50,152 nucleotides of DNA from Gemmatimonadota bacterium (GTDB taxonomy: Bacteria; Gemmatimonadota; Gemmatimonadetes; Longimicrobiales; Gaopeijiaceae), in NCBI GenBank assembly GCA_028873845.1, contig JAPPNO010000131.1, positions 1 through 50,152 on the forward strand, in the 5' to 3' direction. The notes under the pieces were generated by a model that saw only the letters and a list, made by a program, of their open reading frames with translations, had not been told where the DNA came from and did not search any database. The position numbers and the translations under genes were made by a program. This document shows positions 27,765 to 40,877 of the stretch, one piece after another; the stretch's first letter is position 1, and each line of letters opens with the position of its first letter.

Positions 27765-28100
27765 CTACTGCCCGTTGCGCGAAGTCAGCATGATCATCTC
27801 TCGTGCGCGTATCTCCGCCGTCGGAATCGTCACCCCGTCGCGCTCGTAGGAGTCGTACTGCAAGTAGCCTTCGACGTACAGCCGGTCCCCCTTCGACACG
27901 TAATCCTCGGCCACCTGGGCCAGCCTTCCCCACAGGTTCACCCTGTGCCAGTCGGTCCGCTCCTCCGGCTCCTCTCCGCCGGTCCGCCAGTTGGTGGCGA
28001 GCGAAACCCGGGCCACCTTGACCCCGGAGCTCGTGACACGGACATCGGGGTCGCTCCCCACGTTGCCCACCAGAATGATCTTGTTTACCGAACGGCTCAC
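27765..28100 (-). CDS. ssb: Single-stranded DNA-binding protein, tail-less
   Basis: The 111-residue OB-fold protein of the SSB family contains NKIILVGNVGSDPDVRVT at the N-terminus, VARVSLATNWRT, TDWHRVNLWGRLAQVAEDYV and KGDRLYVEGYLQYDSYERDG. These match the DNA-binding core, including the aromatic residues (W and F/Y) that stack on ssDNA. The protein ends directly after the OB fold (EMIMLTSRNGQ). It lacks the flexible linker and the acidic DDDIPF tail used by replicative SSBs to bind partner proteins. The start is a GTG (28098-28100) with GGAGGA 6-7 bp upstream. It converges on the sigma-factor gene across 79 bp. It may be an accessory SSB. Confidence 0.9.
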   Translation of the reverse strand: MSRSVNKIILVGNVGSDPDVRVTSSGVKVARVSLATNWRTGGEEPEERTDWHRVNLWGRLAQVAEDYVSKGDRLYVEGYLQYDSYERDGVTIPTAEIRAREMIMLTSRNGQ

Positions 28101-28353
28101 GGTCGATCCTCCGTCTGCGATTGCGGGTCCGGCCGCGCGACTCCCCGGTGCGGTTCCTGCCGGCTGGTCCCCGGTGACTGTTGTGGACGGGCAAGATCGG
28201 CCCTCAAACGGGGCGCCTACATAGCAATTCGGGACTGAGTTTCGACGGGAACCCCGTGGAGCCGCGGACCGAAGCCTCCGGCATTCGGGCCCCCTGTCCG
28301 CACGGCCCCCGACACCCATTTCCGGACCCCTGCATCGGCCCGGTCCCCTCACC

Positions 28354-31122
28354 TCACCCCTTGCAGTCGTACCAGGTCTTCCCGGACCCCGTGTCCACGC
28401 GCAACGGCACCTTCAGCTCCACGGCGGACTCCATCACCTCGACGACCGTTCCGGTAACCTCCTCCACGCGTCCCTCCTCGACCTCGAAGACCAGCTCGTC
28501 GTGCACCTGCAGCAGCATGCGCACGCCGGCCGCGTCCTCCAGAACGCGCGCCAGCCGGATCATCGCGACCTTGATGAGGTCGGCCGCCGTCCCCTGGATC
28601 GGCGTGTTCTGCGCAACCCGTTCCCCGAACTGGCGCACGTTCCAGGCCCGCGCCCGAAGTTCGGGCACGAAGCGCCGCCGCCCCATCAGGGTCTCCACGT
28701 AGCCCAGCCGTTTCGCCTGCGCCACCTGTTCGTCGAGGAAGTGCCGCACCCCGGCAAAGCGCTCGAAGTACTGCGAGATGAATCGCTTCGCCTCGTCCAT
28801 CGATATGCCGAGCTGCCGTGCGAGCGAGAACGGACCCTGGCCGTACAGGGTCGCGAAATTCACCGTCTTGGCCCGGTCGCGCATGCCGCCCGCAACCTCC
28901 TCCACGGGCACGTCGAAGATCACGGCCGCGGTCTCGCGGTGGACGTCCTTGCCCTCCCTGAAGGCACGCACGAAGACGTCGTCGCCCGAGAAGTGGGCCA
29001 GGATGCGGAGTTCGATCTGGGAGTAGTCGGCGGTCACCAGCAGCGTGCCCGGCGCGGCAACGAACCCGTGCCGGATCTCGCGGCCGATGTCGGTGCGAAT
29101 GGGGATGTTCTGCAGGTTGGGATCGGAGGACGAAAGACGGCCGGTCGCCGCGACCGTCTGGTTGAAGGTCGTGTGAATCCTCCTCGTCTCCGGGTTGACC
29201 AGCGCCGGAAGCGCGTCCACGTAGGTGTTTCTGAGCTTCTCCAGCTGCCGGTAGTCCATCATCAGCTGCGGCAGCCGGTGGCCGTCCACGGCCAGACGCT
29301 CAAGCACCGAGGAATCGGTGGAGGGGCCTGTCTTGGTGCGCTTGATGACCGGCAGCTTCAGCCGCTCGAAGAGCACTTCGCGCAGCTGCGGCGTCGAGTT
29401 GATGTTGAACTCGGTTCCCGCGACGCGGTGGATGTCCTCGCGGATCAGGCGCAGTTCCCGGGCCAGGCGCCGGCTCATCTCCGCGAAGAATGCGGCGTCG
29501 ATCCCCACGCCGTTCATTTCCATGCCGGCAAGGACGGGGATCAGCGGCGTCTCGAGTTCGTCGAAGAGTTCCTCCATGCCCTGCGCCGCCAGGTTGGCGG
29601 CAAACCGCTCCCACAGGGGCAGCGGCAACTCCACCTGTTCGCAGGCGAAGGCCAGGGCCTCCGCGGCCGGGACATCGGCGAAGGCACGGCGCTTCTTCCC
29701 CGTTCCCAGCACGCTCGCCGGGGGGGTAGCGTCGCGCCCGAGGAAATCGGTGGCGAGCGCGGCCAGGTCCTGGCGGCGGCGGCCGGGGTCGAGCACGTAC
29801 GATGCGACCATCACGTCCCGCAGCGGCCCCGCCAGCTCGACACCTGCGCGCCGGCATGCGATCAGCGACCGCTTGAGATCGTGCCCCACCTTGGTGATCG
29901 ACGGGTCGGCCAGCACGCCACGGAGCGGCGCGAGGGCTTTACTGCCCAGGCCGGGCAGGTTGGGGTTGCGTCCCGCGTCGAGGTCTCCCAACTCCAGGGC
30001 GACCGCCCCGCCGTGCGCCAGCGGCAGGTAGTACGCCGTTTCCGCTTCCGCGGCCACCGCGATCCCCGCCACCCTTCCCCGCACCGGCTGCAGATTGTCG
30101 TTCAGCACCGCCACGGCCATCGCTCCGGCCTCCCTGCATGCCCGTGCGATCCCCACCACCTCCTCCACATCCGTGACCAGCACGTATTCGGCCCTCGAGC
30201 AGGCCTCCTCCCCCGCCGGCCCGCCGCTCTCCCGGTCGAGCCGTTCCAGCAGCGTGCGAAACTCCAGGTCCACGTACAGCGCCCGCAGCCGCTCGTTGTC
30301 GGGCTCCGAGACCCGCAGATCCTCCAGGTCCGCATCGACCTCCACATCGGTCCGGATCGTGACGAGATCCTTCGACAGCACCACCTGCTCCCGGTTGGCC
30401 AGCAGCGACTCCCGCGGCCGCTTCGCCCTCACTTCGCCTGCGTGCTCCAGTATCTCCTCGACGCCGCCGTACGTCTCCAGCAGGGTGCGCGCCGTCTTGG
30501 GACCGATCCCCGGGGCGCCCGGCACGTTGTCCGAGCTGTCGCCCACCAGCGCCAGGTAGTCCACGACGCGGTCCGGCGCGACCCCGAACTTCTCCGCCGC
30601 GTTCCGTTCGTCCACCCAGTTGGCCGCCACCCCGTGCGGACCGCCCCGCCCCGGGTTGAGCAGATGCACCCCCGGCCGCACCAGCTGGAAGAAGTCCTTG
30701 TCCCCCGAAACGATCACCGCCTCCAGCCCCTCCTCGACCGCACGCGCGGCCAGCGTCCCTATGACGTCGTCGGCCTCCCACCCCTCCACCGCGATCACGC
30801 GGTCGCCGAATGCCTCGACCAGTTCACGGATGCGCGGCAGGCTCTCGCGCAGCTCCTGCGGCATCTTTTCGCGGGTGGCCTTGTACTCCGGAAACAGTTC
30901 GGTTCGATGACTGCGGCCCGAATCGAACACAACCGCGATGTAGTCCGGATCGTGCTCGTCGCGGATGCCGTACAGGAAGTTGGCGAACCCGAAGGGGGCG
31001 GACGTGTTCTCGCCGCGCGCGTTCGTGAGCGGGCGGTTCAGGAAGGCGAAGAACGACCTGTAGATCAGCGCGTAGGCGTCGATCAGGAAGAGTCGCGGGG
31101 CGGTCTTGGGAGGGATGTCCAT
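28354..31122 (-). CDS. polA: DNA polymerase I
   Basis: The 922-residue enzyme has three domains. Residues 1-~290 are the 5'-3' exonuclease (PRLFLIDAYALIYRSFFAF, VAVEGWEADDVIGTLA, ALVGDSSDNVPGAPGIGPKT). The middle 3'-5' exonuclease fold is degenerate: the expected DxE pair reads AVAVLNDNLQPV, and the later catalytic Asp positions read Ser and Gln, so proofreading is predicted to be absent. The C-terminal polymerase has all motifs: TADYSQIELRILAHFSGD (A), DRAKTVNFATLYGQG (B, O helix) and LLQVHDELVFEVEEG (C, catalytic Asp). It acts in Okazaki processing and repair. The ATG (31120-31122) gives the family length. The next gene upstream is the divergent MscS gene. Confidence 0.95.
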   Translation of the reverse strand: MDIPPKTAPRLFLIDAYALIYRSFFAFLNRPLTNARGENTSAPFGFANFLYGIRDEHDPDYIAVVFDSGRSHRTELFPEYKATREKMPQELRESLPRIRELVEAFGDRVIAVEGWEADDVIGTLAARAVEEGLEAVIVSGDKDFFQLVRPGVHLLNPGRGGPHGVAANWVDERNAAEKFGVAPDRVVDYLALVGDSSDNVPGAPGIGPKTARTLLETYGGVEEILEHAGEVRAKRPRESLLANREQVVLSKDLVTIRTDVEVDADLEDLRVSEPDNERLRALYVDLEFRTLLERLDRESGGPAGEEACSRAEYVLVTDVEEVVGIARACREAGAMAVAVLNDNLQPVRGRVAGIAVAAEAETAYYLPLAHGGAVALELGDLDAGRNPNLPGLGSKALAPLRGVLADPSITKVGHDLKRSLIACRRAGVELAGPLRDVMVASYVLDPGRRRQDLAALATDFLGRDATPPASVLGTGKKRRAFADVPAAEALAFACEQVELPLPLWERFAANLAAQGMEELFDELETPLIPVLAGMEMNGVGIDAAFFAEMSRRLARELRLIREDIHRVAGTEFNINSTPQLREVLFERLKLPVIKRTKTGPSTDSSVLERLAVDGHRLPQLMMDYRQLEKLRNTYVDALPALVNPETRRIHTTFNQTVAATGRLSSSDPNLQNIPIRTDIGREIRHGFVAAPGTLLVTADYSQIELRILAHFSGDDVFVRAFREGKDVHRETAAVIFDVPVEEVAGGMRDRAKTVNFATLYGQGPFSLARQLGISMDEAKRFISQYFERFAGVRHFLDEQVAQAKRLGYVETLMGRRRFVPELRARAWNVRQFGERVAQNTPIQGTAADLIKVAMIRLARVLEDAAGVRMLLQVHDELVFEVEEGRVEEVTGTVVEVMESAVELKVPLRVDTGSGKTWYDCKG

Positions 31123-31180
31123 GGGCTGGCTGGCGCCTCGGGTGCCCGCAGGATCCGGGGACGGCGGGGTTCCCGGGGAC

Positions 31181-31210
31181 TTGCGTACCGAGCCGGCGGG
31201 GCAATATAAC
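31181..31210 (+). promoter_or_regulatory. Predicted promoter of the MscS/NTPase operon
   Basis: TTGCGT (31181-31186) and TATAAC (31205-31210) are 18 bp apart, 41 bp before the MscS start codon. The -35 match is weak, but the -10 lies in the only AT-rich patch of this divergent region. Confidence 0.45.
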
Positions 31211-31251
31211 GAGTCCCCCACGGTGACGACGCAACCCGAAGCGAGCGAACC

Positions 31252-32583
31252 ATGCACACACGCCGGCCCCGCACGAGACGTGGCGGCACGCGGCCGATTT
31301 CCCGCGAGCGCCCGGAGCGGCGTGGCGCGCAACAGGCACGAGGCTCCGCGTGGACGCCGCGGCTGGCCTGGCTCGTCGGCGCCCTGTTGCTGGCCGGCTG
31401 CCAGCGGGACTCCGACTCCGGCGAAAACCGGGAGTCCGCGGCCGGGCAACCGGCGGTGCAGGATTCGGGAGCCCCGGCGTCATCCGGTCCGGCTTCCCCC
31501 ACCGGCCCCGCGGCCCCGACCCCGGAAGACTCCATCACGGCCGCGGGGGTACAGCTCTCGCCACCGGCCGCGACCCCACAACAACCCGGCACCCCTCCCG
31601 CAACCGCCCAGGACTCGCTGGCCGTGACGCTGACCGGCATCATGTCGGCCCAGGAGCGCATCCTTGCCCGCCTGGACTCGATGGAGGCCGCGCGGCCGGC
31701 CGCCGGGACCGAGGGTGCCGCGCCCACCGAGACGGGCGGGATCGACCTGGAGGAAGCCCGCGACGAAGTCACGAACCTCGGTCTCGCGATCTTCTGGTCG
31801 ATCCTGGTGCTGATCCTCTTCCGCTTCCTCATCCGTGGCCTGATCTGGATCCTGGAGACGCTGGCGGAACGGAGCGTGAGAAGGCGCCTCACCTTCAAGT
31901 GGCTGATCCCCATCACGCGCATGCTGCTCTGGGGCGTCGCGGCGTATCTGATCGTCCGCCAGATCTTCAGGGTCGACGCGCAGGGGATTCTAGCGGCGAG
32001 CGCGGCGCTGGGCGTGGCGCTGGGGTTCGCCGCGCAGGACCTCCTCAAGAACGTCTTCGGCGGCCTCATCGTCGTCTTCGACCAGCCGTTCCAGGTGGGC
32101 GACAAGATCTCCGTCGGCGGCACCTACGGCGAGGTGGTCTCGATCGGCCTGCGCTCGACCCGCATCGTGACGGCCGACGACGACTTCGTGTCCGTGCCGA
32201 ATTCGCAGGTCGTCGAGGAGCAGGTGGCCAACGCGAACGCGGGAGAACTCAACTGCCAGGTGTTGACGAACCTCTACCTGCCGGGACGGGTCGACGAGCG
32301 CGCGGCGAAGGAGATCGCCTTCGAGGCCGCGGTGAACTCCAAGTACGTCTTCCTCGAGAAGCCCATCCAGGTGTTCATCGAGGACGAGTTCCACACCACC
32401 TTCGTCACCCGGGTCAAGGTGCGGGCCTATGTTCTGGACCCCCGCTTCGAGTTCCTGCTGAGGAGCGACATCACCGAACGGGCGCGCGACGGCTTCCGCG
32501 CGGCCGGGCTGGCTCCCGAGCACGACTGGTATCCGCTGGCGGTGTCGGGCACGCCCGGGGCGGGTGACACGGTGGCGTCGTGA
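31252..32583 (+). CDS. MscS-type mechanosensitive channel with a lipoprotein-like N-terminus
   Basis: The 443-residue protein contains the MscS core: a pore helix QGILAASAALGVALGFAAQD with the small-residue pattern, then LLKNVFGGLIVVFDQPFQVGDKI, GTYGEVVSIGLRSTRIVTAD (beta domain) and VSVPNSQVVEEQVAN. TM helices precede it (VTNLGLAIFWSILVLILFRFL and WLIPITRMLLWGVAAYLIV). Unusually, the N-terminus has a hydrophobic stretch ending in LLLAGC, a perfect lipobox, and then about 100 residues of Pro/Ala/Ser/Thr-rich linker with a helical patch (MSAQERILARLDSME). MscS channels open under membrane tension. The stop overlaps the start of the large NTPase gene by 4 bp (GTGA), implying one operon and coupled translation. 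No Shine-Dalgarno site is evident. Confidence 0.9.
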   Translation: MHTRRPRTRRGGTRPISRERPERRGAQQARGSAWTPRLAWLVGALLLAGCQRDSDSGENRESAAGQPAVQDSGAPASSGPASPTGPAAPTPEDSITAAGVQLSPPAATPQQPGTPPATAQDSLAVTLTGIMSAQERILARLDSMEAARPAAGTEGAAPTETGGIDLEEARDEVTNLGLAIFWSILVLILFRFLIRGLIWILETLAERSVRRRLTFKWLIPITRMLLWGVAAYLIVRQIFRVDAQGILAASAALGVALGFAAQDLLKNVFGGLIVVFDQPFQVGDKISVGGTYGEVVSIGLRSTRIVTADDDFVSVPNSQVVEEQVANANAGELNCQVLTNLYLPGRVDERAAKEIAFEAAVNSKYVFLEKPIQVFIEDEFHTTFVTRVKVRAYVLDPRFEFLLRSDITERARDGFRAAGLAPEHDWYPLAVSGTPGAGDTVAS

Positions 32584-35500
32584 GCGACGGCGACAAGGGG
32601 CGGACGGGCCCGGCCGGGACCACCCGAATGACCGACGCGGAGATCGTCGCGCGCATCGCCGAGGCGGTTCACGAGCCGTTTGCCGCCGCGTGGCGCCGTT
32701 ACGAGGAGCGGGACTGGGGCAGGATTCGCCGCACTCTGGAGCAGGTGCTCGCCGCCCACGAGCGGGCCCTGGCCGCATTTGCCGGGGCGGAGGAGGACGG
32801 GGACGGGACGGGCCCCGGGTCCGGCGGGGGTGCGCTCGCCGAGTACCGCCGCGATGTGTCGCGCAACGTGCTGAAACCCCTCCACCTCGTGCTTCGCCAC
32901 GGAAGTATCGCGGTGTCGCTGCACCGGTCCCTGGCCGCGGCCGGCCGCGAGGCGCGCGAGGCTCTGCGGGAACTGCCGGAGGCGGCCGAGTCGCCGGTGT
33001 CGCCGGACGCGCTCGCCACCGCCGCCGGGCTGGGGCCGGGGACGGACGTGAAACGGCTCTGGGCGCGCCTGCTGCGCCCCGTCGTGTGGAAGATCGAAAC
33101 CCGCGAGGTGCCGGTGCGGTCGCTTGCGCGCCGGCACCTCGATTGCGAAGTGCTCCCGCGCCAGCTTCGTTCGTTCCGGGCCGGCCAGCGCGGCCGCGCG
33201 GGGTGGCTGGGACGGGTGGAGCGGGCCTGGGCGGTGTGGACCAGGGCGGTGCTCCTGCCACCGAGGGGACGGGGCGGGGGGGAGGTGGAGGCGGAGGGGG
33301 AGGACGCAAGTGCGGGACTGGCCGCCGGCGAAGCGCTGCAAGGGGAACTGGAGGCGCTTCGGGACGGGTGGGGGGGGACAGGGGGGGACCTGGCGCGGTC
33401 GTCCGGGGTTCTCGCGGCAACGGTGGCCGTGGCGGGGACCTTCGTGGCTCCGGGACCGGCACCGGCGCCGCCCGCTCGGGACGATGAGGGACCGGCCGGC
33501 CGCTGGGACGAGTGGGCCAGGCAGTCGGCGGCGAGGCTGGAGCTGCACCGGGGTCTCCTGGCCATGCAGGCCGCGGCCCATGCCATCGGCGCCCGGCTGG
33601 CCGGTCACTGGCGGGAGACGAACCGGAGCGTCGATGCCGTCCTCGACCGGATTGGGGCGACTCTGGACGACGGCATGGCCCGCACGGAGACGTTGCCGGA
33701 GGACGACGACGGACTGCGCCGCGCCCTGGCGTCGCAGCGGGAGCGGACCGCCGCCGGGCTGAGCGGACCCACCGCCACTCTCAACGACCCCGCGCCTTTC
33801 CTGCGGGACGTTGCCAGGCACGCCGAGGAGGCAGTGGAAGACCTGGTTGTGATGTGTCGCCAGCTGCCGGAAGTCACCCTCCACGATCTGCCGGACTCCG
33901 ACGAAGTCATTCGGCGCCCGGCCGACGATGCCCGCCTGGTCCAGACCCGGGAACTCGCCGTGCAGGCCTTCGACACCCTGCGCATGGAGAGGATCCGGAC
34001 CGCCCCGTCCGCGATCGAGGAGGCGTGGAGTGGCGTCGGCAAGGCCGTCAGGGAGCTCGGGGTCGTCTCGGACTATGGGTACGAAGCCGCGCTCGCCGAG
34101 CTGGCTGACGGGGCAGCCGGCGACCCGGGCGCCGCCCGCGTGCTCGTCACCGACGGTCTCTCCCGCGCCGGCGACAGGCTCGAGTCCGCCAGGGCCGGGC
34201 TGCGGACCGGACAGGAGGCGGCGGCACACCGCGTTCGCGCCGAAATAGGGGAAGGCGCGGTGCGCCTGATCCGGCGGGTGACCGCGGACCGGCTGCGCGC
34301 CGGCTACCTCGACGCGCGCACCTACCTGGCGACCGAAGTCGCGCAGGACTGGAAGCAGTGGCGCGGACGTGCCGGGGAGAGTGCGCGCCGGACATGGGAC
34401 GCCATTCGGGCCCTGGCCGGTCGTTTCGGGCGCGTGCTGAGCGCGCTGGGCATCCGTCCCCAGCCGGGGCGGACCCTGGAGCGGACCGGGGACACGCTTG
34501 CCTCGGCGGCGGAGTTCGTGCGGACCCTCCCGGTCGTCTACCAGCGCCTCTTCGCCTTCGAGCCGCTGACCGACCCCCAGTTCCTGGCCGGGCGCGACGA
34601 CGAGTTGGCGGAGGTCGAGGCTTCATGGGAGCGCTGGAAGGCGGGCGGACCCGGCTGCCTGATCGTCATCGACCGGCCCGGAACGGGGGTCACCAGCTTC
34701 CTGAACGTCGTCTCGGCACGTCTGTCATACGAATCGCAGCAAAGCGTACGACGCATTCTGCATGACCGCTGCCGCGACGAGGCGGCCCTCGCGGCCCGGA
34801 TCGCGCCGTGGCTCGGGCTCGACGGCGCCGAAACCCTGGACGATCTGGCAACGAGGGTGACGGCTGGAACGGACGAATCGGTCCCCCGGCTGGTGATCCT
34901 GGAAGGCATCGAGCACCTTCACATGCGCGCGCCCCGGGGCGGAAGGCTCTTCCGGCGCTTCATGACCTTCGTCTCGCGCACCGAATCCAGCATCTTCTGG
35001 GTCCTCTCCATGACCGCGTCCGCATGGCAGCTGGTTCGCACGCGCGCGCCGGAAATGGCGGGCGAAACGAGACAACTGGCCCTGGAGCCCCTCACCCCCG
35101 ACGAACTGCGGCAGGCCATCACCTCCCGTCACCTGCGAAGCGGGCTGCCGCTGCAGTACGTCGAGCCACGGGCCGGAGCGGACGCCCTGCGCACCCGGGC
35201 GCGCCGCCTGCATGCGACGGACCGGCAACAGCAGCTGATCGAGAAGAACTACTTCGAACGCCTCCACCGGGCAGCGCTGGGGTCGATTCGCCTGGCGCTC
35301 TTCCACTGGCTGCGCTCCGCGGACTTCACGACGGTCGAAGGCAGCCTCCTCGTGCGCCCGCTGGAGCCGCTGAGCCCCCCGACCGATATGTTCGACCTGA
35401 CGCGGAGCTTCGCCCTCAAGGCCATCCTCGATCATGGGACGCTGAGCGCGGGCGAGTACTGCGAGGTCCTGCGGGCTTCGGCCGAGGAGTGCGCGCACAC

Positions 35501-35663
35501 GCTCGGGTCCCTCGAGGAGAATCACTTCATCGAGGCATCCCGGCCCCCGAACGCGGAACCGCGAGATCCCGCCGGCCCCGCCTGCGAGGTTCGCTACCGG
35601 CTACGGCCCCTGATGACGGGAGCGGTGATCGCGCACCTTCGATCCCGCAATATCCTGCACTGA
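32580..35663 (+). CDS. Large helical protein with a C-terminal STAND-like NTPase domain
   Basis: The 1027-residue protein is of unknown function. Residues 1-~640 are helical and rich in Ala, Arg and Glu, with one mildly hydrophobic segment near residue 285. Residues ~650-940 form an NTPase module: it opens with FAFEPLTDPQFLAGRDDELAE, a typical STAND entry motif. A P-loop LIVIDRPGTGVTSFLNVVS follows near residue 698, where the conserved Lys is Val704. A Walker B LVILEGIEHLHM follows at about 771-782 (Glu in place of the usual Asp). A sensor-like SIFWVLSMTASAWQL comes next. The last 110 residues look like a winged helix (LKAILDHGTLSAGEYCEVL). The gene overlaps the MscS gene by 4 bp; an ATG at codon 17 is an alternative start. 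No close family is recognised. Confidence 0.75.
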   Translation: MSDGDKGRTGPAGTTRMTDAEIVARIAEAVHEPFAAAWRRYEERDWGRIRRTLEQVLAAHERALAAFAGAEEDGDGTGPGSGGGALAEYRRDVSRNVLKPLHLVLRHGSIAVSLHRSLAAAGREAREALRELPEAAESPVSPDALATAAGLGPGTDVKRLWARLLRPVVWKIETREVPVRSLARRHLDCEVLPRQLRSFRAGQRGRAGWLGRVERAWAVWTRAVLLPPRGRGGGEVEAEGEDASAGLAAGEALQGELEALRDGWGGTGGDLARSSGVLAATVAVAGTFVAPGPAPAPPARDDEGPAGRWDEWARQSAARLELHRGLLAMQAAAHAIGARLAGHWRETNRSVDAVLDRIGATLDDGMARTETLPEDDDGLRRALASQRERTAAGLSGPTATLNDPAPFLRDVARHAEEAVEDLVVMCRQLPEVTLHDLPDSDEVIRRPADDARLVQTRELAVQAFDTLRMERIRTAPSAIEEAWSGVGKAVRELGVVSDYGYEAALAELADGAAGDPGAARVLVTDGLSRAGDRLESARAGLRTGQEAAAHRVRAEIGEGAVRLIRRVTADRLRAGYLDARTYLATEVAQDWKQWRGRAGESARRTWDAIRALAGRFGRVLSALGIRPQPGRTLERTGDTLASAAEFVRTLPVVYQRLFAFEPLTDPQFLAGRDDELAEVEASWERWKAGGPGCLIVIDRPGTGVTSFLNVVSARLSYESQQSVRRILHDRCRDEAALAARIAPWLGLDGAETLDDLATRVTAGTDESVPRLVILEGIEHLHMRAPRGGRLFRRFMTFVSRTESSIFWVLSMTASAWQLVRTRAPEMAGETRQLALEPLTPDELRQAITSRHLRSGLPLQYVEPRAGADALRTRARRLHATDRQQQLIEKNYFERLHRAALGSIRLALFHWLRSADFTTVEGSLLVRPLEPLSPPTDMFDLTRSFALKAILDHGTLSAGEYCEVLRASAEECAHTLGSLEENHFIEASRPPNAEPRDPAGPACEVRYRLRPLMTGAVIAHLRSRNILH

Positions 35664-35684
35664 CCCCCGCGGCCGGACGGGGTC
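35662..35684. terminator. Hairpin between two convergent genes, possible terminator
   Basis: GACCCC (35662-35667) and GGGGTC (35679-35684) are arms of a 6-bp stem between the NTPase gene end and the cold-shock gene end. There is no T-tract on either side, so it would be a weak or factor-assisted terminator. Confidence 0.3.
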
Positions 35685-35716
35685 GTCAAGCCGCCCCGGC
35701 CATGGCCCGCGACCGG

Positions 35717-35917
35717 TCAGCCGCGGGTCACATTCGCCGCCTGCAGGCCGCGCTCCGTCTCCCGGAGCTCGAACTCCACCTCTTCCCCCTCCGCAAGGGT
35801 GCGAAACCCATCACCCTGAATTGAACTGAAGTGTACGAACACATCGTCACCCGTCGAGCGGGAGATGAATCCGTAACCCTTGGCGTCGTTGAACCACTTG
35901 ACCGTTCCTTTGGCCAT
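35717..35917 (-). CDS. Cold-shock protein (CspA family)
   Basis: The 66-residue cold-shock domain binds single-stranded RNA or DNA. Both RNA-binding motifs are intact: KGYGFIS (RNP1) and VFVHFSSI (RNP2), preceded by [12 protein letters not shown]. The C-terminal half ([20 protein letters not shown]) is standard. Length and composition agree with CspA-type chaperones. GGAGG lies 8 bp before the ATG. It is monocistronic; it converges on the NTPase gene. Its upstream region holds a perfect 10-bp palindrome, CCCGATCGGG, of unknown meaning. Confidence 0.97.
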
Positions 35918-36022
35918 TCAGCCATCCTCCGGAAACTGAATTGATACTGCGGTGGACGACCCGATCGGGCCGTGCCAAACTGACGGCTCCATGATGGGGG
36001 GAAGTGCAGGAGGCGTCAAGCG

Positions 36023-37642
36023 TCACCCCGTGAACTCCAGCCGCTCGACGCGCCCACGGATCTGTCGCACAACGATCCGCGGCACCAGCACGGCCGCGCC
36101 CACCAGCACGAAGATCGCCGCCGCGGTCCATGTCGCCTGCCCGTACACCCACAGGAGGAGCGGCAGGAGGGCAAGGGCGAGAATGGCAAGGAGCACGGCC
36201 CCCATGAAAGCGCCGATCCGGGCGCCCTTGCGAACCGGTTCCGAGAAGGGCAGGCGGGGCGCCACGAGCAGCAGCATCTGCAATGCCAGGTGGGCGAGGA
36301 GCCCCAGCACGGCGGCGTGGATCACCGCGTGCCAGAAGTTGCCGAAGCTCCACAGGAAGACACCTGCCAACATGGCCAGGTAGGGAAGCAGGAAGAAGAT
36401 CGCCACGCTGTTCCCCACGTTGCCGATCAGCCTGGCGCGGTCCACCGGCGTCGAGAAGAAGATCCACGCGGCCCTGTAGGATTCGCTCCTGAAGAGGTTC
36501 TCCATGAGGATCAACGGCATTCCCAGCACCGCGAAGTGGATCAGCCCCAGGCCACGGGCTTCGTAGCCCAGGTGGAGGAAGGGATCGGGAAGGCCTCCGT
36601 CGTCCAGGGACATGAAGACGTAGAGGAGCGTGATCGGCAGCATGCTGAGCACGGCCAGGCGGAAGTTCATGTCATTGCGGAACTGCCCGCGGACGAGCGT
36701 GGAGACGACGCGCAGCTCGGACGAGAACCAGCGTGTCACCAGGACACTCCGTCCGGTTCGGCTCCGCTCCGGCCGGCTGTCGGCCAGCATCACGCCGAGC
36801 CGCTCGGCGTACGACAGCGAGAGCCTGTGACCCACGAAGTCGAAGAGCGCCACAATGCTCCCGAAGCCCACAATCACGGCCAGAACACCGGTGACGCTCC
36901 ACCTTCCCCCGGCAAGGGGAAGGACGCTGGCGAACCAGGTTGAGGGGAGCGCCAGCATCGCCGCCGGGGGTTCGCCCAAGTTCATCACCAAGCCCTCCAG
37001 CGTGTCGTCGAGCATGATCGGCAGGAAGATGGCCATCGTCATGACCAGCTGCAGGTAGCCGAGCACGCGGCGCAGACGGGCCGGGCTGACGACGCGCAGG
37101 ACCAGGGCGTACACGAACACCATGGCCAGCGAGGTCCAGACCACCGTTCCCGCCAGCGCCACGAGCCATCCCAGCGCGACCGGCAGGCCGAACTTCCACA
37201 GAAACACGATCGTCGCGAAGCCGCCCATCAGCGTCCCGATGATGCCGGTGTACAGGAGGATGCTGGTCAGCTTGACGAGAAAGTAGGTGCGCGACGAGAC
37301 CGGCTGGTGTGCCAGGATCTCATAGTCGTTCGGCGAGATCACCACGGACTGGAAGTCGATGAGGATCGCCATCGCGACCATGAGCGAGACCATGAGGAGC
37401 ACGATCGACGCGGACAGGTAGCCCCCCGGGACGGCGGCCGCCACCAGCGCCAGGAACATGCCGTAGACCGCATACATGAGCAGGATGGGCCAGGGGACCT
37501 TCGCGCGCGACTTCTCGGGCGACCCCGCCAACTGCATCGCCGACGAGGAACGCAGGTCCGTCTTGAGCATCACCCGGCTGAGCACGCGCCACTGCGCGTA
37601 GTCCGCGCCCAGCGCCTCGACCGCCCACCGCACCGGCTTCAC
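36023..37642 (-). CDS. ABC-2-type exporter permease, large
   Basis: The 539-residue protein has about 12 hydrophobic segments, for example PILLMYAVYGMFLALVAAAV, GILIVLLMVSL-like stretches near 35% of its length and WTSLAMVFVYALVLRVV. No catalytic motifs are seen. It is probably the membrane half of an exporter with the ATPase encoded upstream, whose stop it overlaps by 4 bp (GTGA; GTG start at 37640-37642). The substrate is unknown. The family resembles large ABC-2 permeases in which two homologous halves are fused: the first half holds SVVISPNDYEILAHQPVSS and a similar RSESYRAAWIFFSTPVDRAR appears in the second half. Confidence 0.8.
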   Translation of the reverse strand: MKPVRWAVEALGADYAQWRVLSRVMLKTDLRSSSAMQLAGSPEKSRAKVPWPILLMYAVYGMFLALVAAAVPGGYLSASIVLLMVSLMVAMAILIDFQSVVISPNDYEILAHQPVSSRTYFLVKLTSILLYTGIIGTLMGGFATIVFLWKFGLPVALGWLVALAGTVVWTSLAMVFVYALVLRVVSPARLRRVLGYLQLVMTMAIFLPIMLDDTLEGLVMNLGEPPAAMLALPSTWFASVLPLAGGRWSVTGVLAVIVGFGSIVALFDFVGHRLSLSYAERLGVMLADSRPERSRTGRSVLVTRWFSSELRVVSTLVRGQFRNDMNFRLAVLSMLPITLLYVFMSLDDGGLPDPFLHLGYEARGLGLIHFAVLGMPLILMENLFRSESYRAAWIFFSTPVDRARLIGNVGNSVAIFFLLPYLAMLAGVFLWSFGNFWHAVIHAAVLGLLAHLALQMLLLVAPRLPFSEPVRKGARIGAFMGAVLLAILALALLPLLLWVYGQATWTAAAIFVLVGAAVLVPRIVVRQIRGRVERLEFTG

Positions 37643-38448
37643 GCCCGGCGGTCCGTCCGCTGTCCGCCCTCGTCCGCGCGTTCGGGGGCACCCAGCGCCG
37701 ACAGTAGCCCGCGCGTGACCTCGGCCGTGTCACGAACGCCTGTCAACTGCGCGAACGCCTGTTCCAGCGATTCGGTGCCGGTCTCGGCCGCGATGTCCCC
37801 GGCGGTCCCTTCGGTGACCTTGCGCCCCTGGTCGATGATCACGATCCGGGTGCAGATGCGCTCCACCACCTCGAGGATGTGGGAGCAGAAGAGGATCGTG
37901 CGTCCCTGCGAGGCCAGCTCGCGCAGCAGTTCCTTGACCACCAGCGCGGCGTTGGCGTCGATCCCGTTCAGGGGTTCGTCGAGGAAGAGGACCTCGGGAT
38001 TGCCGATCAGGGCCGCGCTGATCAGCACCTTCTGCTTCATCCCCTTCGAGTGCGCCGACAACGGCTTGTCGAGCGCGTCGAGCATGTCGAAGAGGCCCAG
38101 CAGTTCGCTGACCTTCCTCTCGGCGTACCCACCCTCGATGCCGCGCAGGTTCGCCACCATGGTCAGGTATTCGCGGGCGGTCAGGGCTTCGTACAGCGCT
38201 CCCGCCTCGGGCACGTACCCGAGACGCCGCTTCACCTCCATGGGATCGTGCTCGACGTCGAAGCCTGCAACCCACGCTGAACCGCGCGTGGGTTTGATCA
38301 TGCACGTCAGGATCTTGACCGTGGTGCTCTTGCCGGCGCCGTTCGGTCCCAGGAAGCCCAGAATCTCGCCCGGTTCCACATGCAGGTCGAGGTTCTCGAC
38401 GGCGGCCTTGTCGCCGAAGTGGCGGGTGAGGGACTGGGTGTCGATCAT
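37639..38448 (-). CDS. ABC transporter ATP-binding protein
   Basis: The 269-residue ATPase has Walker A GFLGPNGAGKST, Q-loop-adjacent LGYVPEAGALYEALTAREYL, signature HSKGMKQKVLIS (an MKQ-type ABC signature), Walker B EVLFLDEPLNGID, and an H-loop CSHILEVVERIC. The signature and short length fit exporters of the DrrA/NatA type. The ATG at 38446-38448 overlaps the stop of the lytic transglycosylase gene by 4 bp (ATGA), and its own stop overlaps the permease start (GTGA). All three genes therefore are translated from one mRNA. The substrate is unknown. Confidence 0.95.
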   Translation of the reverse strand: MIDTQSLTRHFGDKAAVENLDLHVEPGEILGFLGPNGAGKSTTVKILTCMIKPTRGSAWVAGFDVEHDPMEVKRRLGYVPEAGALYEALTAREYLTMVANLRGIEGGYAERKVSELLGLFDMLDALDKPLSAHSKGMKQKVLISAALIGNPEVLFLDEPLNGIDANAALVVKELLRELASQGRTILFCSHILEVVERICTRIVIIDQGRKVTEGTAGDIAAETGTESLEQAFAQLTGVRDTAEVTRGLLSALGAPERADEGGQRTDRRA

Positions 38449-40877
38449 TCGCCGCCTCCGTAGAGCCACCGGTACAGCGCCCAATTCCGGGTCACGCTCT
38501 TGACGTACCCTCGCGTCTCCGCGAAGGGGATGCGCTCGGTGAAGCGGTGGGGGTCCTCGGCTTCCGGAAGGCGGCGCCAGCGGTTGGCCCTGGTCGGACC
38601 CGCGTTGTACGCCGACAGGACCAGGGGTATGACCCCGTCGTAGCGGCGGAAGAGTTCCGAGAGGAAGTGCGTGCCCAGATGGACGTTGAGTTCCGGAGTC
38701 TCCAGCATCTCGGTGCGGAAGCCCCTGGGCCCGATCGCGCCCGCGACCTGTCTCCCCGTGGCCGGCATGACCTGGGTGAGGCCGATCGCCCCGGCCGGCG
38801 ACACGATGTCCGGCACGAAGGTGCTCTCCTGGCGGATCAGACCGGCCAGCAGGAAGGGGTCGAGCCCCAGCTCGCGGGCACGCGAGGTCACGAGTTCCCG
38901 GAAGGGGAAGGGGTAGACGACGCGCACCAGGGTGAGGTCCCAGGGGCGGCCGCCCCGGCGGAGCTCCAGCCCGAGCCGGATCGCGTCCAGGGTGCGCCCG
39001 GCTTCGTTGAGGGCGACGGCCAGTCGCAGGAGAAGCTCATCGGAGCCCGCGGCCGCGTCCTTCATCGCGGCGACGTGCGCGTCCGCTGCTTCCTCCAGGC
39101 CGGCTTCCTCGAAGAGGGCGAGTGTCTCCAGGTCGCGCGACAGCCACTCCGGATCGGGCAGCGGCGGGCCTGCGGGCAGGTCGGGTGCGAAGGCGGCCCC
39201 TTCGGTCCGGGCGGACAGAAAGGCGTAGTAAGACAAGGGACTTACCCGCTGGATCCGGGTCCGCAGCCTGCGCGCCTCGGCGGTGTCTCCCAGCGCCGCG
39301 GCCGCCTGCGCCCCCCAGTAGCTGGCCTCCTCCCAGCGCCTGCCGCCGGGAAACTCCTCCAGGTAGCCCTGGAAGACCCCCAGAGCGGCGCCCAGCTCCC
39401 CCCGCCGCAGGTGGAGCTGCCCCCACCTCATGCGCGCGAGCCCCGCGCGGTTCGCCGACGCCGACATGGAGACGACCTGCCTGTAGTGGTCGATGGCCTG
39501 GTCGACGCGGCCGGCGTCGTGGTGATCGTCGCCCCGGAAGAAGATCACGTCCAGCGCCTCCGCACTCGACGGGAAGCGCTCCACGAGCCTGTCCTGCAAG
39601 GTGCGCGCGTCGCCGTGCCGGCCCTGGCGGGTGCGAATGGCAGCCCACGCCCGGAGCGCGGCGGCGGCAACGGCGGGGTCTCCGGACGCGGCCAGCTCGC
39701 GGTACACGCGAACCGCGCCGTCGCGGTCACCGCTGCCGTTGTAGGCCCGGGCCAGTGCGGCGCGGTCGCGCTCTGTCAAGGCCCCTCCCCGCCGCTCCAC
39801 CAGCCTCCATGCGCGCACCGCGGTGCCGAATTCGCCTCCGTTGCCCAGCGCCCCGGCCACCGTACGGAGCACCTCCGGCCCGGAGTTCGAGGCCACCCTC
39901 CAATGGGCCATGGCCGCTTCCAGGGCCGCCGCCCCCCGCGTGGTGCGGCGCAGCAGCCCCTCCATCGCGGCAACCGCCCCCGCCGAGTCCCCTCCCGCCA
40001 GCCTGTAGCGCCACTCGAGCGCCAGCGTTTCCGTGCGGGACGCACCGCTCTCCCTTCCCCGCGCCAGTACGTCCATCAGCGCCTCCAGGGCCCGCGCCGT
40101 ATCCCCCGCCTGGGCCCACGCGTCCGTCTCGAGCCGCCACCCCCGCCTGCTCACCGCGGGCTCGGCGACCGACGCGAGCAACTGCCGCACCGCGGCCCCC
40201 CCGCCGCTGCGGGCCAGCCTCCCCGCCACGGCGAGCGCCGTCCAGTCCCCCAACCGCGACGACAGCCCGCGCAGCGCTTCCACCGCCTCCACGGACTCGC
40301 CCGCCGCCTCCGTCTCCGCCAGCCCCCGTGCAATGCGCGACCGGGCGGCCACTCCTTCCGGAGCATCGGCGGGCACCACCGCGACGAAGCGGGTCAGTGC
40401 CCGGACGGCCCCCGCATGGTCCCCCGTTCGCGCGCGCGACGTTCCCAGCAGGTACCAGAAGCGCGGGGGCGCACCCTCGGTATCGCTCCCGTCCCCGACC
40501 AGCGCGGCGACCGCCCCCTCCCAGTTCCTCCACCCGGCTTCGGCCTCCGCCAGCACCATCCGGTCCTCGACCGCGGCCGAGGCGAGCGGGGCCAGGTGGA
40601 CGTGCAGGGCCCGGCTGGCCTTCCAGTACCTCCCGTCGGCAAGGTCACGCCGTATCGAATCGGGAATCGTGGACGCGCCATCGGAAGCCCGGCCAACCTG
40701 TGCCGCCACACCTCCGCCGGGCACCGGGCTCACCCCCGCAACCACCAGAAAAGCCAGCCCGGCTAAACCTCTGAACGCACCGGCAGCCCGCGGCGGATCA
40801 CTCCGTTGTGGAGCGCCGGCGCGGGCTGCCCGATGGGGGCGGCGAGGCCCTCTGCCCGATATGCGCGGGCGGGGCAT
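38445..40877 (-). CDS. Slt-type lytic transglycosylase with TPR-like repeats
   Basis: The 810-residue protein has a signal-like hydrophobic stretch (GLAGLAFLVVAGVSPVPGGG). It then has about 550 residues of helical TPR-like repeats (for example AIDHYRQVVSMSASANRAGLAR), and a C-terminal SLT domain: LLAGLIRQESTFVPDIVSPAG with the catalytic Glu, GAIGLTQVMPATG, LNVHLGTHFLSELFRRYDG and LSAYNAGPTRANRWR. It cleaves the beta-1,4 bond of peptidoglycan to form anhydromuropeptides, like Slt70. The ATG at 40875-40877 was chosen; two GTG codons directly precede it. The stop overlaps the ABC ATPase start by 4 bp, and a MotA/TolQ-type gene precedes it by 25 bp. Confidence 0.9.
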   Translation of the reverse strand: MPRPRISGRGPRRPHRAARAGAPQRSDPPRAAGAFRGLAGLAFLVVAGVSPVPGGGVAAQVGRASDGASTIPDSIRRDLADGRYWKASRALHVHLAPLASAAVEDRMVLAEAEAGWRNWEGAVAALVGDGSDTEGAPPRFWYLLGTSRARTGDHAGAVRALTRFVAVVPADAPEGVAARSRIARGLAETEAAGESVEAVEALRGLSSRLGDWTALAVAGRLARSGGGAAVRQLLASVAEPAVSRRGWRLETDAWAQAGDTARALEALMDVLARGRESGASRTETLALEWRYRLAGGDSAGAVAAMEGLLRRTTRGAAALEAAMAHWRVASNSGPEVLRTVAGALGNGGEFGTAVRAWRLVERRGGALTERDRAALARAYNGSGDRDGAVRVYRELAASGDPAVAAAALRAWAAIRTRQGRHGDARTLQDRLVERFPSSAEALDVIFFRGDDHHDAGRVDQAIDHYRQVVSMSASANRAGLARMRWGQLHLRRGELGAALGVFQGYLEEFPGGRRWEEASYWGAQAAAALGDTAEARRLRTRIQRVSPLSYYAFLSARTEGAAFAPDLPAGPPLPDPEWLSRDLETLALFEEAGLEEAADAHVAAMKDAAAGSDELLLRLAVALNEAGRTLDAIRLGLELRRGGRPWDLTLVRVVYPFPFRELVTSRARELGLDPFLLAGLIRQESTFVPDIVSPAGAIGLTQVMPATGRQVAGAIGPRGFRTEMLETPELNVHLGTHFLSELFRRYDGVIPLVLSAYNAGPTRANRWRRLPEAEDPHRFTERIPFAETRGYVKSVTRNWALYRWLYGGGE

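Follow-up and report, generated by a model that had tools for sequence, protein, structure and literature searches.

The window analysed here, a stretch of 50,152 nucleotides from a Gemmatimonadota assembly of 137 contigs, contains a gene for an MscS-family mechanosensitive channel followed on the same strand by a gene for a large partner protein (Table 1). An earlier note, made from the sequence alone, had described an MscS ORF overlapping a 1027-aa ORF by 4 bp (GTGA), and both ORFs are present as it described them. The two reading frames are under purifying selection (dN/dS about 0.27–0.33), and the 4-bp overlap is seen in most fetched relatives, down to 22–24% identity; the pair is therefore not a product of chance. 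All complete members of the genus that were examined have the 4-bp overlap except one (L058, with an 8-bp shift). Beyond the genus it is found in most loci, the remainder overlapping by 8–14 bp and one having a 19-bp gap. The close relatives are recorded as Longimicrobiales/Gemmatimonadetes metagenome-assembled genomes, and the alignments and most of the data rest on such genomes.

Nine genomes have an identical block of 12 bases, GGCAATATAACG, between polA and mscS (alignment A6). Given its fit to the consensus and its conservation, this block probably represents the -10 element of a sigma70-like promoter reading into the pair. No Rfam RNA was found in positions 28000–38500.

Table 1. Features of the mscS–partner locus, in positions of the window
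Feature	Position	Strand	Details and basis
Putative sigma70-type promoter of the pair: TTGCGT (31181–31186), 18-bp spacer, TATAAC (31205–31210)	31181–31210	+	Sequence and alignment
MscS-family channel ORF	31252–32583	+	443 aa, ATG start
Codon of lipobox Cys 50 (LLLAGC), predicted lipid-attachment site	31399–31401	+	Sequence and alignment
GTGA overlap (mscS TGA stop and partner GTG start)	32580–32583	+	Sequence; also in most fetched architecture 1 relatives
Partner protein ORF	32580–35663	+	1027 aa, GTG start
Helical region, about residues 19–622 (~620 helical residues)	32634–34445	+	Model and profile alignment
AAA+ module, ORC/Cdc6-like fold, about residues 648–931	34521–35372	+	Structural matches
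Degenerate Walker A, about residues 699–707 (DRPGTGVTS), Lys replaced by Val; G701, G703, T705 and S706 conserved	34674–34700	+	Alignment
Winged-helix-like C-terminal domain, about residues 935–1027	35382–35660	+	Secondary structure of the model; ORC-type AAA+ and winged-helix alignments reach residue 1025

Structure of the channel and its partner

The β domain of the channel is recognized by Pfam (PF00924, MS_channel_2nd; E = 3.1e-20, residues 263–329), and the channel family profile matches solved MscM, MscS and MscK structures with E values down to 2.5e-19. A standard MscS fold is predicted, with a disordered linker ahead of it. In the model, three membrane helices (residues 166–207, 212–238, and 243–277), in agreement with hydropathy, are followed by the β domain and a C-terminal α/β domain, the arrangement that characterizes MscS, and a further helix (119–147) is placed between the linker and the three transmembrane helices (166–277). 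The Pro/Ser/Ala-rich linker spans about residues 51–117, and with pLDDT values below 50 for most of residues 50–117 it is predicted to be disordered. It is preceded by a lipoprotein signal with a lipobox whose Cys is at least 90% conserved in a 31-row family alignment. Both the lipobox and the long linker ascribed to the channel in the earlier note are thus borne out, and the channel is predicted to be lipid-anchored via Cys 50. A lipid anchor and flexible tether before an MscS channel are unusual; the MscS proteins of the two other gene architectures described below have no lipobox. Several lineages have another MscS gene, of a more ordinary kind, no more than a few kb away from the pair (L102, L107, L109, L113, L115, and L117).

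The partner could not be assigned to any Pfam, NCBIfam, or PADLOC family at a significant level. Searches of PDB sequences gave no relatives with the single sequence, and with profiles gave only coiled-coil and weak AAA+ matches. The predicted model (mean pLDDT 83.9) is more informative: residues 648–1025 match ORC/Cdc6-type AAA+ proteins, TnsC, and the archaeal Walker-type ATPase 2qen with Z scores of 13.8–15.9, the top matches including 7jgr_G, a Drosophila ORC-Cdc6 entry (Z = 15.9, RMSD 3.4 over 247 residues), and 2qen itself (Z = 13.8). As in STAND proteins, an AAA+ core is followed by a winged helix. A C-terminal repeat sensor (TPR, LRR, or WD) is absent, as the partner ends after the winged helix and its helical region is N-terminal. 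The helical part has few invariant residues. A cationic amphipathic stretch near residues 585–630, for which contact with the membrane is suggested, recurs among relatives with the gene order of the window, and the winged-helix segment is acidic, not basic (SAEECAHTLGSLEENHF).

Conservation and gene order in Gemmatimonadota

Of the Gemmatimonadota loci fetched, 46 have an intact flank, and each of these, from four families, has an adjoining MscS gene. The partner was found in 22 of the 22 other genomes of the genus that were searched and in 11 of 61 genera of the order. Outside the order it occurs in two families of the same class (f4 and f7), and a wider sample of the phylum, searched with a broader profile, yielded no further lineage. 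The neighbors vary by lineage and the pair is constant: polA and an ABC/transglycosylase block flank it in part of the genus, and genes for CN-hydrolase, SRAP, glutathione synthetase, Hsp20, argininosuccinate synthase, or aconitase in other lineages.

The possibility that the two genes are incidental neighbors was considered, and none of the fetched loci with intact flanks contradicts the pairing. Where MscS is missing (L036, L046, L059, L105, and L116), the locus stops at a contig border, as does L117, which lacks the upstream side, and in the split-contig cases G013 and G127 the missing half is on another contig. An order-wide search with a single channel protein gave a bimodal distribution, of close orthologs (E < 1e-40) versus general MscS proteins (about 1e-22), and no close ortholog without a partner was found in the order. 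One apparent orphan MscS (G034) was rejected, the N-terminus of a partner lying directly downstream at the contig end. The earlier note had proposed that the two genes belong together, and that partner homologs away from MscS genes or MscS orthologs standing alone would speak against this; within Gemmatimonadota, both tests came out in favor of the pairing, which is a real conserved unit.

Evolutionary distances of channel and partner are correlated (r = 0.94, with 0 of 2000 permutations as high). This correlation reflects co-inheritance, mostly through shared descent, and not contact. The patchy distribution among genera shows that the unit can be dispensed with at that larger scale, at which it may also have moved horizontally. 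At one locus (L096, G190:C89), a contig of 6.7 kb, the pair clusters within genus g12 of another family and the genome belongs to family f7; this is either a misbinned contig or a recent transfer. Another (L120:16029–16394, G064) carries a second fragment of the partner C-terminal module, 122 aa long and ~5 kb downstream of the intact copy, which is either a partial duplication or a decaying paralog.

Three architectures can be distinguished. In architecture 1, that of the window, MscS precedes the partner, mostly with the 4-bp overlap. In architecture 2, found at two loci (L056 in G053 and L103 in G301), the partner precedes MscS. In architecture 3 (L057 in G043 and L119 in G137), a cation-chloride cotransporter is fused to the helical and AAA+ module, and MscS follows. 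Each fusion is encoded in one ORF, about 1,700 aa long, whose Walker A is intact (L057:4125–9392 and L119:1794–6854). A third case (L118 in G129) is cut by a contig end, with the cotransporter part probably on another contig, giving three fusions, two of them complete, all in a side clade. G129 and G137 each carry architectures 1 and 3. The fused N-terminus belongs to the SLC12/CCC family, as identified by the K-Cl cotransporter model TIGR00930 (E = 1e-118) and Pfam AA_permease, and matches animal SLC12 structures (NKCC1/KCC) with E = 6e-66. The profile of architecture 1 can be aligned to both the helical region and the AAA+ domain of the fused module, with weak similarity in the helical part; as the alignment spans the helical region too, homology to the fused form extends beyond the P-loop domain. 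Most cotransporters of this family in the order stand alone, unfused, and the window pair has none. At L119 a zinc-protease-like gene follows MscS, and another, oppositely oriented MscS gene is located upstream.

The degenerate P-loop of the partner

None of the 46 aligned architecture 1 members has the Walker-A Lys, and V (17), I (15), L (5), T (3), R (3), H (2), or A (1) stands in its place; the adjoining Gly, Gly, and Thr/Ser residues of the P-loop are nearly unchanged. The Lys is kept in all five members of architectures 2 and 3. The STAND form of Walker A, GxxxxGK[ST], is found neither in the window partner nor in its architecture. Walker B (hhhhD[DE]) is likewise not retained: the window sequence reads LVILEGIEHL, and across architecture 1 the second acidic residue is mostly replaced by G, N, S, or A. 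On the tree, a single event accounts for loss of the Lys (support 99/90; recovered in 98% of bootstrap trees), a placement to be read with caution in view of the long outer branches. For the partner as a whole dN/dS is about 0.33, and for its AAA+ part about 0.24; R672 and R850/H851 are conserved, the latter two invariantly.

Since the Lys is lost in all aligned members of this architecture while purifying selection persists, the window partner is probably a conserved pseudo-ATPase. It may still bind nucleotide, or even hydrolyze it in an unusual manner, because conservation extends to R672, R850/H851, and what is left of the P-loop (G-x-G-x-T/S). The layout first proposed for the partner, a helical region, an NTPase module, and a winged-helix-like tail, is therefore present in the model in all its parts, but with the catalytic Lys missing from every aligned architecture 1 member, NTPase activity is not to be assumed and the description as an active STAND-like NTPase is not supported.

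Proposed function of the pair and relation to described systems

The cotransporter fusion and the constant link to MscS argue for a role in ion or osmotic homeostasis, and the fusion in the sister form strengthens the idea of an osmotic response voiced in the earlier note. We give about an even chance to the pair being a vertically inherited homeostasis unit of this kind, made up of an MscS channel with a lipid anchor and an AAA+ protein that has lost catalysis and serves as its regulator or scaffold. The partner, as a cytoplasmic AAA+ protein presumed unable to hydrolyze ATP, would bind the channel physically, contact the membrane through its cationic amphipathic segment, and set either the site at which the channel assembles or the membrane tension at which it opens. 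Older, ATP-competent forms would couple nucleotide state to ion uptake through the cotransporter and to release through MscS. In the simplest mechanism, the helical and AAA+ protein would bind the transport protein in the membrane and adjust its activity. Such control would be ATP-dependent in the sister forms and only allosteric or scaffolding in the window form, which would have kept the binding role.

A more specific version is possible and is offered tentatively. Here the helical and AAA+ protein would control MscS directly, from an ancestral state that was ATP-competent and fused to the cotransporter, with uptake and release both coupled to nucleotide state. The window partner would be a pseudo-ATPase gating partner, and its channel would have a lipid tether, with a disordered linker in the periplasm that might extend as far as the outer membrane; such a bacterial module would be so far undescribed. 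Co-inheritance and adjacency also fit two proteins that serve one process without contact.

It is doubtful that the partner is instead an assembly, localization, or cytoskeleton-like factor, a helical scaffold that places or inserts the channel and has no control over gating. The large helical part with its few invariant residues, the amphipathic segment, and the dead P-loop would suit such a factor, as would the translational overlap, which is typical of complexes assembled during translation. However, an AAA+ fold, GR and RH motifs, and a winged helix under purifying selection exceed what a passive scaffold needs, and the active sister forms carry a fused transporter. Conservation of G701, G703, T705, S706, R672, and R850/H851 could alternatively indicate an ATP-driven switch with a non-canonical P-loop, making the unit an ATP-gated channel controller; this is unlikely, as no one residue consistently takes the place of the Lys, and Walker B mostly has G, N, S, or A at its second acidic position. 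Somewhat harder still to sustain is a transcription regulator of channel or osmotic genes, membrane-tethered when fused. The C-terminal winged-helix-like domain and the ORC/Cdc6 DNA-binding proteins among the fold matches are in keeping with this, but the winged-helix segment has the wrong charge, the partner is encoded downstream of the channel and co-translated with it, and ORC-type winged helices also occur in STAND proteins that do not bind DNA.

AAA+/STAND-type proteins are common defense sensors and membrane pores common effectors, and phage defense had been considered in the earlier note. PADLOC gave no family for channel or partner at E ≤ 1. A defense scan of ten proteins, comprising neighbors and sister proteins, gave one strong match, a neighbor in L044; here a putative OLD/HEC-01A-like AAA_21 gene (L044:11056–12342) lies right after the pair on the opposite strand, and in L047 a similar position is held by an unannotated ORF. 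Clustering with known defense genes, which had been suggested as a check, is limited to this match among the proteins scanned, and the neighbors are mostly housekeeping genes. No relative of the partner was found in viral contigs or in phage and plasmid collections, and the plasmid matches of the fused form, among the matches listed, cover the cotransporter part only. Nor was a mobile, patchy, defense-island context encountered, presence being patchy only between genera. Despite the commonplace sensor and effector types and the gene in L044, a defense or cell-suicide unit, in which the partner would sense infection and open the MscS pore to cause depolarization or lysis, is thus very improbable, given the absence of PADLOC matches and of phage or plasmid relatives, the mostly housekeeping context, presence with co-inheritance in all 22 other genomes of the genus that were searched, loss of the switch Lys in the whole clade, and fusion of the sister form to a salt cotransporter.

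The window channel shares with MscS, MscK, MscM/YjeP, and YnaI the β domain, the TM3-type pore helix, and the predicted fold, but differs from them in having a lipobox, a long disordered linker ahead of its first membrane helix, and an obligatory gene partner. We know of no described MscS protein with a lipobox and linker of this kind or with an obligatory gene partner. The partner resembles ORC1/Cdc6-like AAA+ proteins and STAND NTPases (including PABY2304, PDB 2qen) in the succession of AAA+ module and winged helix. Unlike these, it lacks the Walker-A Lys and most of Walker B, and has a 620-residue N-terminal helical region, a C-terminal module, and a link to a channel. The inactive STAND (iSTAND) proteins of vWA-MoxR ternary conflict systems are conserved, catalytically dead STAND/AAA+ proteins within a multi-gene unit (PMC7159879). 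The window partner is similarly conserved, probably dead, and part of a multi-gene unit, but the pair has no adjoining vWA or MoxR partner; mechanosensitive channels are not mentioned in the main text of that paper. Keyword searches of open-access text found no paper linking MscS to a STAND/AAA+ partner and no description of a system of this make-up, in agreement with the earlier note, whose author knew of none.

Taken together, the pairing and the cotransporter fusion point to an unrecognized control of salt and water balance. MscS channels are generally seen as tension valves that work on their own, and to our knowledge there is no earlier genetic evidence for dedicated protein control of MscS gating, or for coupling of uptake and release, in bacteria. 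If the proposed control is real, the pair would, so far as we know, provide the first genetic evidence of dedicated protein control of MscS gating, and likewise the first for bacterial ion uptake coupled to mechanosensitive release. As forms that keep the Lys and forms that lack it both occur naturally, the role of ATP in this family is directly testable.
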